64,000 nucleotides of DNA from Teredinibacter franksiae (GTDB taxonomy: Bacteria; Pseudomonadota; Gammaproteobacteria; Pseudomonadales; Cellvibrionaceae): assembly GCF_014218805.1 (NCBI RefSeq), contig NZ_JACJUV010000002.1, positions 1 through 64,000 on the forward strand, given 5' to 3'. The translations under genes and the position numbers were made by a program. Below the pieces are notes generated by a model that saw nothing but the letters and a program-made list of their open reading frames with translations, was not told the origin of the DNA and did no database searches. Positions 38,317 through 41,173 of the stretch are shown piece by piece; the stretch's first letter is position 1, and every line of letters starts with the position of its first letter.

Positions 38317-39474
38317 ATGTTCGAATTAGTTGATAGCATTCCGCAAAATGCGGTTATTAAAGTTGTTGGTGTAGGCGGTGGCGGTGGTAACGCTGTTAAA
38401 CACATGATCACGAATACGGTAGATGGAGTGGAGTTTATTTGCGCCAATACCGATTCGCAGGCGTTAAAAGACGTAGACGCTCGTACGGTGTTGCAGTTGG
38501 GACATGGTATTACAAAGGGATTAGGTGCTGGTGCAAACCCGGAAATCGGTCGTCAGGCTGCAATGGAAGACCGCGAACGTATTGCGGAAGTTCTTGAGGG
38601 TGCCGACATGGTGTTTATTACAGCGGGTATGGGTGGTGGTACCGGTACTGGCGGCGCACCGGTCGTTGCCGAGATTGCCAAAGAATTGGGTATTCTTACC
38701 GTCGCAATTGTAACTAAGCCTTTTCCGTTTGAAGGGCGAAAGCGAATGGCAATTGCTGATGAAGGTATAAAGCAATTACAGGACCGAGTAGATTCTTTAA
38801 TTACTATTCCAAACGAAAAATTGCTAGCGGTATTGGGTAAGGCAACAACATTGCTGGATGCTTTTAAAGCGGCGAACGATGTACTGCTGGGTGCGGTACA
38901 GGGTATTGCCGATCTTATTATTCGCCCAGGCATGATAAATGTCGATTTTGCCGATGTTCGTACGGTTATGTCGGAAATGGGCATGGCGATGATGGGCAGC
39001 GGCAGTTCTACAGGTGAAAATCGTGCGCGGGAAGCGGCCGAAGCAGCTATACGCAGCCCGTTGCTGGAAGATGTTAATTTACAGGGTGCTAGAGGCATTC
39101 TGGTGAATATCACTGCCGGTATGGATCTTTCTTTGGGTGAGTTCTCGGAGGTGGGTGATACTATCGAAGAGTTTGCGTCTCACGATGCCACGGTTGTTGT
39201 GGGAACGGTCATCGACCCCGATATGTCCAATGAATTGCGTGTAACTGTTGTTGCTACTGGTTTGGGTAATCCAGCGCGTGCTGAAAAGCCTGTTGCTACG
39301 AAGGTTGTAGATAATACGCGCAGTGCCGATGGCCGCCCAAATTACGCCGAGTTGGATCGTCCAACCATTATTCGTCATAGCCAAACGGCCAAGGCTGCGC
39401 AGGCGGTTGAGTCGGAAGAGAAGGATCTGGAATATCTTGATATTCCCGCATTCTTGCGTCGTCAAGCGGACTAA
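38317..39474 (+). CDS. ftsZ: Cell division GTPase FtsZ
   Basis: FtsZ polymerises with GTP into the division ring. Start ATG 38317 follows AGAGGGGA at 38303-38310; the frame is open to 38254 but the extension lacks similarity. The 385 residues include the T1 loop [14 protein letters not shown], the tubulin signature [11 protein letters not shown], the T7 loop region around [13 protein letters not shown], and the C-terminal peptide [15 protein letters not shown] that binds FtsA and ZipA. It is followed by the 525-bp gap described separately, not by a close lpxC. Confidence 0.98.
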
Positions 39475-39492
39475 TTCGAATAAGCACATTTT

Positions 39493-39635
39493 GGTTAGCT
39501 GAAACAGTTGCTGTGGAGCGAGGCTTCGAGTACCCCGCTTCCCCCGATGATTTAGGGGGCACAGGACGTGGCTGCCCGCAGAACCTGGCGACAGGGAGCC
39601 GGAACTTTCTGAGTTTCGGCTCGTCTCAGCTAATT
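39493..39635 (+). ncRNA. Candidate structured RNA element between ftsZ and lpxC
   Basis: A compact, GC-rich stretch closed by an exact 8-bp inverted repeat (TTAGCTGA at 39495-39502, TCAGCTAA at 39626-39633, plus two outer G-T pairs). Inside, stems follow one another: ACAG/CTGT (39504-39514), GGAGCG/CGCTTC (39515-39541), CCCC/GGGG (39542-39558), CAC/GTG with loop AGGAC (39560-39570), CCTG-GCGA-CAGG (39584-39595, a GNRA tetraloop), and an 11-bp stem with loop TTCTG (39596-39622). It matches no RNA family I can name. It sits 18 bp after the ftsZ stop and upstream of the lpxC promoter, so it would be in the ftsZ 3' UTR or be a separate small RNA. No T-run follows. It could instead be a small mobile repeat; no target duplication was seen. 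Confidence 0.5.
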
Positions 39636-39999
39636 GTGTATATTTGCATCGAAAATTGATTTATCGCGAAGTTTTTGCCGCCAAAAGTGATAATCTTGGC
39701 AGCTACGCTTGGGAGAATTGAGTGGCTACCCGCCGTTTTTGGTGGGCGCTACAGGGAATCACTTTAACTACTTTTAAATTTGCTACTTGAATGAGTAGGG
39801 TAGGTAAAGTTGTAGGGGGGGAAGGCTTGGGCTTGTCGTGCGATTCGACCCAGCCGATGGAGCTGGTCTCAGGCGACCGAATGTGCTCTTGTATCCCCCT
39901 AAAGCGTGCTGTTCAATTATTAATCGACCCGGTTGGTTTGGGGTATGTCATCTGCTATGATGCGCGCCGCTTTCTGACCCACCCTAGAGATGTGATTGA
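39636..39999. other. Rest of the ftsZ-lpxC intergenic region
   Basis: No gene was found. Two further hairpins are visible: GCCGCCAA/TTGGCAGC at 39677-39703 (one mismatch) and CCCGCC/GGTGGG around a GTTTTT loop at 39729-39746. GCTAC occurs three times at 22-24-bp intervals (39702, 39726, 39748). A G-run of seven lies at 39815-39821. The last 70 bases hold the lpxC promoter. A 70-codon open frame at 39791 has no recognisable similarity and I do not call it. Confidence 0.5.
39933..39961 (+). promoter_or_regulatory. Sigma-70 promoter of lpxC
   Basis: TTGGTT at 39933-39938 and TATGAT at 39956-39961 are separated by exactly 17 bases. Transcription would start near 39968, giving a leader of about 32 bases. 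This indicates that lpxC can be expressed independently of ftsZ. Confidence 0.65.
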
Positions 40000-40914
40000 A
40001 TGATCAAACAACGAACCCTGAAAAATGAAATTCGAGCCACTGGCGTGGGTCTTCATACCGGTCAGAAGGTTTACCTGACCCTGCGCCCAGCTCCTATTGA
40101 TGCGGGTATTGTCTTTCGTCGGGTGGATCTAAACCCGGTCGTAGAAATTCAAGCAAAAGCAGAGAATGTTGGCGATACCACCCTCTCTACCTCATTAATG
40201 AACGGTGATGTCCGGGTTTCAACCGTAGAGCATCTTCTTTCGGCTATGGCGGGCCTTGGCATCGATAATGCCATTGTCGAAGTCAGTGCCGACGAAGTGC
40301 CCATAATGGACGGTAGTGCCGGGCCTTTTGTATTCCTTATACAGTCTGCTGGTATTCAAGAGCAGGCTGCGCCGAAAAAGTTTATTCGTATTAAGAAGAA
40401 GGTTGTCGTCAAAGATGGCGACAAAGAAGCCTGCTTCCTGCCGTTCAACGGCTTCAAAGTGTCTTTTACTATCGATTTTGACCACCCCGTGTTTAAAGGG
40501 CGAAAGCTTGATGCCACGGTTGATTTCTCCAGCACCTCATTTGTGAAAGAAGTATCACGTGCACGTACCTTCGGTTTTATGCACGAGATTGAGTACCTGC
40601 GATCCAAAGGGTTGGCGAAGGGAGGTAGTGTTGATAACGCCATTGTTGTCGATAAGTACCGTATCTTGAACGATGATGGCCTGCGCTACGAAGACGAATT
40701 TGTAAAACACAAAATTTTAGACGCCATTGGCGATTTATACTTACTGGGAACCAGCCTGATTGGCGAGTTTAGGGCGTATAAATCTGGCCACGGTTTGAAC
40801 AATAAATCGTTGTTGGAGCTGATAAAGCAAACGGATGCATGGGAGCTAGTAACGTTTGAGGATGAAGAACAGGCCCCCATTTCGTATGTTAAACCCCTAA
40901 TGGCCGCTTCGTAG
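40000..40914 (+). CDS. lpxC: UDP-3-O-acyl-N-acetylglucosamine deacetylase
   Basis: LpxC is the zinc enzyme that commits UDP-acyl-GlcNAc to lipid A. The 304 residues open with [20 protein letters not shown]. Zinc ligands are in [14 protein letters not shown] (His) and [14 protein letters not shown] (His and Asp); [17 protein letters not shown] and [20 protein letters not shown] are also conserved. The C-terminal [13 protein letters not shown] completes the family. As in E. coli and Pseudomonas it ends the dcw cluster. A degradation tag cannot be judged from sequence alone. Confidence 0.98.
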
Positions 40915-41173
40915 GTTGTTGTTGTGTAAGGCCCTTTTGTATAAAAACACCAAAACATAAGGGTTGAATCGAATATAGAGTTGAATTTTTGTGGTTAGGT
41001 GTGCCATAGTTTTGTCGATTTTGGCCTGCACATGAGCCATTTGGCGTTTAGAAGCCCGATTAGCTTGCGAGATGCTTCTATTTGCACAATTATTAACATA
41101 AAGAGTCTGACGAAATTTCGCGCGCTTTGTCGGACAAGGCTTTTCGAGCCCGCGCATTGGGCCTTGATAGACG

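Follow-up and report, generated by a model that had tools for sequence, protein, structure and literature searches.

A genus-restricted structured element between ftsZ and lpxC, with a candidate CsrA/RsmA site, in genomes most likely of Teredinibacter

The analysed window is a stretch of 64,000 nucleotides in which ftsZ is followed on the plus strand by lpxC. The ftsZ gene ends at 39474 and a structured element occupies 39493–39635 (+), its start lying 18 nt 3' of the ftsZ stop codon, exactly where the initial annotation had placed it. The element, its parts and the lpxC promoter are as follows.

39493..39635, + strand: whole element, ftsZ 3' UTR / ftsZ–lpxC gap (fold z −4.0; matched by a profile that leaves out this copy)
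39516..39631, + strand: covariance-model match to this copy of the element, itself a training sequence
39495..39505, + strand: closing helix P1, 5' arm (inverted repeat with 39623–39633; P1 in the MFE of 6/6 aligned orthologues)
39623..39633, + strand: closing helix P1, 3' arm, with an invariant GTC at its start (inverted repeat; alignment)
39511..39516, + strand: 5' strand of an inner helix, CUGUGG, with partner CCGCAG at 39576–39581 (MFE and enforced fold; window sequence only)
39516..39524, + strand: GAGCGAGGC, which could supply the 5' strands of two stems (GAGCG with CGCTT at 39536–39540; GGC with GCC at 39574–39576, helix B)
39528..39540, + strand: C-rich conserved block GAGTACCCCGCTT (invariant positions in six orthologues)
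39541..39559, + strand: CCCCC-loop-GGGGG hairpin (fold of the window sequence; relatives have other sequence or a weak hairpin)
39560..39570, + strand: CACAGGACGTG, candidate CsrA/RsmA site (ACA(N)GGANGT in 7/8 genus gaps, resembling the CsrA/RsmA consensus)
39584..39595, + strand: CCTG-GCGA-CAGG hairpin (formed in the MFE of the window sequence; not evident in relatives)
39596..39622, + strand: hairpin E, 11-bp stem and 5-nt loop, with invariant GGAACTT at 39601–39607 (6/6 aligned orthologues)
39933..39961, + strand: lpxC promoter, hand-read as TTGGTT-17-TATGAT, separate from the element (second conserved island of the gap)

The closing arms TTAGCTGAAAC (39495–39505) and GTCTCAGCTAA (39623–39633) pair at 10 of 11 positions, the outer eight exactly. 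The hairpin formed by 39596–39606 and 39612–39622 has ten exact pairs and one G-U pair, the eleventh, around its 5-nt loop, and the GCGA-loop hairpin can be read directly from the sequence at 39584–39595, so that all three of the named stems proved to be present. Folded as RNA, 39485–39645 reached −66.3 kcal/mol, whereas shuffled sequences averaged −51.2 (sd 3.7; z −4.0, with 0 of 200 shuffles folding as well), and the observation of a folded element after ftsZ is thereby confirmed. The minus strand was equally far from its own shuffles (z −4.1), and folding alone therefore does not give the strand. The remaining gap folded no better than chance (39646–39807, z −0.8; 39808–39906, z −0.8). Six internal hairpins had been proposed; the one with a GGAC loop was absent from the MFE of the window sequence, and approximately the full set was recovered once it was enforced, at a cost of 2.6 kcal/mol. 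The proposed GC richness was borne out against the three following non-overlapping windows (57 % in 39480–39619 versus 46, 51 and 45 % in 39620–39759, 39760–39899 and 39900–40039), but the contrast is small, with 55 % in one intermediate window and 50–56 % in the end of ftsZ.

A consensus scan of 39300–40010 found no promoter for the element and no terminator-like site at its end; the sole terminator-like site in that range lies inside ftsZ. The element was taken to be part of the ftsZ transcript because it begins 18 nt after the stop, no promoter was called for it and the sole terminator-like site is inside ftsZ. The hand-read lpxC promoter was not called by the same scan, and positions 39951–39974 (approximately), at its second hexamer, were conserved in all six genus relatives compared (G135 left out). 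The element lies about 300 nt before this conserved island, upstream of the promoter as had been described, and hence outside the leader of transcripts that start there. Nothing but the adjacency of lpxC speaks for a coupling to lipid A synthesis, which had also been raised: the promoter of lpxC is a conserved island in its own right, some 300 nt further downstream. The region 39808–39906 contains a pair of G- and C-runs (near 39815 and 39895) that enclose GGA; it was rejected as a second structured element on its z of −0.8 and on BLAST searches, which found it in its own genome and in none of the seven genus relatives.

The ftsZ–lpxC gap was read in all eight genomes of the genus and in 81 other genomes of the family, making 89 of the 143 with an lpxC match. 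The genus is most likely Teredinibacter, whose members are wood-digesting shipworm symbionts. The whole element was found between ftsZ and lpxC in six of the eight genus genomes (that of the window, G131, G133, G134, G135 and G136), and a partial copy was present at the same locus in G132 (covariance model, E 0.0014). The model was trained on the six full copies, for which matches are therefore expected, and G132 was outside the training set. No scoring match was obtained in G137, whose gap is identical to that in a public record of T. waterburyi and is too diverged to be called an empty site. Absence from close relatives, which would have counted against the element, was thus seen in one of the seven other genus members and by half in G132. 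BLAST and the covariance model both gave a single copy in the genome of the window, while G134 yielded two further weak model matches (E 0.06 and 0.56). Outside the genus, the best model match among 136 family genomes had an E of 0.079 (under stricter filters, given the number of genomes). The element is restricted to the genus and conserved in position. No report of it was found in the literature searched.

Homology was also assessed with profiles. One built without the window's copy matched the window's gap at the expected position (E 2.7e-10) and also the gap of G132, which had no part in the training (4.6e-5). The full copies form two clades, clade 1 (the window's copy, G131 and G134) and clade 2 (G133, G135 and G136). 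A profile of clade 1 alone matched G133 (4.3e-6) and G132 (2.5e-4) and left G135 and G136 unmatched; one of clade 2 alone matched G132 (0.0028) and G131 (0.065, ranked below a gap from another genus with 0.057) and left the window's copy and G134 unmatched. Because single-clade profiles match across only partly, the case for homology of the two clades is carried by the joint profile, together with the locus and the blocks they have in common. The window's copy is 61 % identical to G131, 49 % to G134 and 41–45 % to clade 2; G135 and G136 are 96 % identical to each other, so that the six copies amount to about five independent sequences. In G132 (L115), a perfect 12-bp hairpin, GCAGCCATGGGG-TTC-CCCCATGGCTGC, stands 27 nt 3' of ACATGGATGT in place of the element's 3' half.

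The closing helix P1, which spans the element, was formed in the MFE of all six orthologues. Fold z-scores were −3.8 for the window's copy, −4.3 for G131, −4.1 for G136, −4.8 for G135, −7.2 for G133 and −1.9 for G134, the last being little better than shuffles. The plus-strand MFE was the lower in all six, while the minus-strand z was the better in three (the window's copy, G134 and G136). RNAalifold on a MAFFT alignment returned a weak consensus (−10.0) with a covariation term of +0.86, a penalty rather than a bonus, and 8 of its 24 pairs were changed on both sides. This poor result is explained by the helices of the two clades being out of register, and hand-made blocks and strand exchange were used for that reason; the hand-made alignment has G134 one base out of register at ACA(N)GGANGT, where the machine alignments are correct. 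Earlier hand-picked strands were biased, having been chosen after the folds were seen, and windows anchored on the invariant blocks were used instead, giving 18 exchanges between clades. For P1, cognate strands gave −20.7 to −34.6 versus a between-clade mean of −15.2, although the best exchange (−24.2) beat three cognate pairs, all of clade 1 (window's copy, −21.6; G131, −20.7; G134, −22.7). For helix B, cognate strands (−12.5 to −21.0) were at least as good as any of the 18 exchanges (mean −8.9, best −12.5), whereas helix E gave an ambiguous picture (−6.9 to −17.2 versus a mean of −7.7 and a best of −14.3). Strand exchange, which differs from a formal covariation test, supports a real structure. 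Beyond P1 and B, no secondary structure was common to both clades. A pseudoknot combining GAGCG/CGCTC and AGGC/GCC may also be envisaged; its stems would overlap in G132.

Three blocks stayed constant in the six orthologues while the stems changed, namely GA(G/T)TNNCCCNCT, ACA(N)GGANGT and GGAACTT, and a GTC was invariant as well. The C-rich block reads GAGTTCCCCGCTC in the partial homologue G132. ACA(N)GGANGT was present on the ftsZ strand in seven of the eight genus gaps and in 8 of the 89 family gaps, the eighth (L201) belonging to another genus, with one of 89 on the other strand; in the window's copy, the spacer base ahead of GGA is missing, the CACAGGACGTG loop having one base fewer than those of relatives. 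GGAACTT was found in all six aligned rows and, on the ftsZ strand, in 11 of the 89 family gaps, among them L216, L219, L221, L241 and L243 of other genera; on the opposite strand none of the 89 has it. Hairpins with a CCCC-containing C-rich loop occur 3' of ftsZ in several other genera (L199, L200, L202, L234, L245, L249, L251 and L256). C-rich loops as a general hairpin habit were rejected, none of the 34 perfect plus-strand hairpins of at least seven pairs in the window having a CCCC loop. In genus g19 (L198, L211, L225 and L231), ftsZ is followed by a CANGGANG block and directly by CT(G/A)TTCCCCGC, two blocks that the element also has, in reversed order.

ACA(N)GGANGT resembles the CsrA/RsmA consensus, with a conserved ANGGAN in consensus context, and the genome of the window has two csrA genes (above the CsrA cut-off). 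Binding by CsrA is the most specific reading of this block, which may thus be a candidate site. GGA trinucleotides had been offered initially as a speculative hint of CsrA, and one such GGA proved on comparison to be part of the block found in seven of eight genus gaps. The predicted accessibility of this GGA varies: its three bases were mostly paired in the window's copy (unpaired probability 0.04/0.14/0.42) and in G131 (0.00/0.00/0.02), roughly half accessible in G133 and G134 and mixed in G135, and G136 alone has them mostly open; presenting this GGA as a hairpin loop costs 1.7–5.3 kcal/mol. The GGA of GGAACTT was paired in all six predicted folds, except for its last base in G134. Across the 89 family gaps, ANGGAN hairpins of at least three pairs were found in 21 on the ftsZ strand and 3 on the other (shuffle mean 10.9, maximum 18, 100 runs), those of at least four pairs in 10 versus 2 (shuffles 4.7, maximum 10) and those of at least five pairs in 4 versus 1 (shuffles 2.0, maximum 5). 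The excess in family gaps is at most modest.

That no known RNA family fits was corroborated by Rfam 15, which gave no match above cut-off in the element region or in seven genus loci. The sole Rfam match over the middle of the element, H19_2 on the minus strand, scored 13.6 bits versus a cut-off of 50 and was rejected. The CsrB, RsmY and RsmZ models had no match in 38500–41000 (to E 5) or in 39474–39900 (to E 10), and RsmZ (RF00166), searched genome-wide, was found in none of the eight genus genomes, a search in which the named control genomes also fell below cut-off and which thus has no positive control. CsrA/RsmA-binding small RNAs (CsrB/C, RsmX/Y/Z and, in Alteromonas, Aln1a–c; PMC5864184) resemble the element in carrying GGA motifs within a compact fold and in the presence of csrA. 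In contrast to these RNAs, the element has one good site, or perhaps two, rather than many, has no visible promoter of its own, lies behind ftsZ, lacks an Rfam match and has its GGA often predicted as paired. Membership in the CsrB/RsmZ type of CsrA-titrating RNAs was rejected on the single consensus-like site in place of several unpaired ANGGA and on the mostly paired GGA predicted in the window's copy.

Two RNAs have been reported between ftsZ and lpxC: sRNA-Xoo8 of Xanthomonas (RF02243) and PA4406.1 of P. aeruginosa, which the Xoo8 authors suggest are related by position (PMC3039613). Another group has presented evidence that PA4406.1 is cleaved (PMC5870498). The element shares with them its place between ftsZ and lpxC. 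The Xoo8 model gave 11.2, 25.1 and 20.9 bits versus a cut-off of 90 in the window and genus loci. The window match (39923–40072) lies over the lpxC promoter and start, and that in G137 (L116) spans the whole gap, yet its alignment covers only the end of ftsZ and the lpxC end, most of the intervening gap being skipped. No L116 match remained once the lpxC side was removed, and none was found in 39474–39900 of the window. Similarity to sRNA-Xoo8 over the element was rejected, because the matches score under the cut-off and stem from the ends of the flanking genes. In comparison with PA4406.1, none of the blocks was found in six gaps (115–118 nt) of other Pseudomonas and near kin, and ACA(N)GGANGT was in no Pseudomonas-type gap among 79 distinct gaps scanned. 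Bacterial small RNAs derived from 3' UTRs (PMC9438474) share the position directly after a stop codon; the element differs in having no terminator-like site at its end.

Dispersed elements were observed in other Cellvibrionaceae (L123–L132 and most of L135–L164), consisting of a long inverted repeat around CAGGGATG and ACANGGANGT hairpins joined by approximately (C)GGAGC. Of 144 family genomes, 73 contain the pattern CAGGGATG-N(8–32)-ACANGGANGT, with 63 occurrences in G106, and a reversed control had four matches in all 144. Ten loci with such elements gave no Rfam match above cut-off. The dispersed elements might be candidate CsrA-binding elements. They share the ACANGGANGT hairpin with the ftsZ element and differ from it in their many copies per genome, their long inverted repeat and the lack of profile similarity. 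In the genome of the window (C1, near 1111838 and 3811648; L195, L196 and L197), short tandem repeats directly follow a hairpin with a T-run, and their units contain CAGGGATG- and ACANGGANGT-like hairpins.

A small mobile repeat had been the main alternative in the initial annotation, and the dispersed elements, in which a long inverted repeat likewise encloses ACANGGANGT hairpins, would give such a repeat its kin. However, the whole-genome search for further copies returned only the one, the same locus is occupied in seven of eight genus genomes (one partially), and the profile matched none of 45 loci holding these patterns (best E 0.08); a search of 50,697 phage records gave no match to the element and one of 72,556 plasmid records none to the gap. 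A remnant of a mobile repeat is thus very unlikely. A chance fold is more improbable still: scanning much raw sequence should turn up windows with a z of −4 here and there, but such a fold is contradicted by the conservation between species and by the control with exchanged strands. A 3'-UTR-derived small RNA that acts by base pairing, with the C-rich block (UUCCCC/UACCCC) as a seed against G-rich ribosome-binding sites, appears doubtful. Of the 89 family gaps, 12 contain GT[T/A]CCCC on the ftsZ strand and none does on the opposite strand, and the same loop recurs on different stems in two other genera (GGAG-UUCCCCA-CUCC and CGGAA-UUCCCCG-UUCCG). However, the motif was picked after the sequences had been viewed, 5 of the 12 gaps are from the genus itself, G131, G135 and G136 lack it, plain TTCCCC is found 18 versus 9 times on the two strands, and the scan of 39300–40010 offers such an RNA neither promoter nor terminator.

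The closest competitor, still unlikely, is a structured 3' UTR without CsrA, which would protect or trim the end of the ftsZ mRNA or pause RNA polymerase, the GGA block being kept for another reason such as an alternative fold of GAGUnCC with GGAACUU. The frequent predicted pairing of the candidate-site GGA is consistent with this, as is the pairing of GAGTTCC with GGAACTT over 7–8 positions without mismatch (G-U counted) in G133, G135 and G136, which was also the choice of RNAalifold. However, that pairing has an uncompensated mismatch in the window's copy, G131 and G134, and the constancy of ACA(N)GGANGT in seven of eight genus gaps would be left unexplained. The reading preferred here, a genus-restricted structured RNA in the ftsZ 3' UTR that is putatively bound by CsrA/RsmA at ACA(N)GGANGU, has, taken as a whole, about an even chance of being correct.

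Under the preferred reading, the element would be transcribed from the ftsZ side, within the ftsZ 3' UTR, and the RNA would fold as a closed domain in which P1 joins both ends around several short hairpins. CsrA/RsmA would bind ACA(N)GGANGU, and the GGA of GGAACUU would perhaps offer a second contact for the CsrA dimer. Binding might then tie the stability and processing of the ftsZ mRNA 3' end to CsrA, or the processed 3' UTR might serve as a weak CsrA-titrating small RNA. A bolder and distinctly less probable version is that the ftsZ message carries its own CsrA-binding domain, which is released by cleavage as a small RNA; free CsrA would then be adjusted with every round of ftsZ expression, and division would be coupled to the carbon-storage regulon. 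The element, unmatched in Rfam 15, is a candidate RNA family; should its RNA be produced and recognised by CsrA, a 3' UTR would link a cell-division gene to a global regulator.
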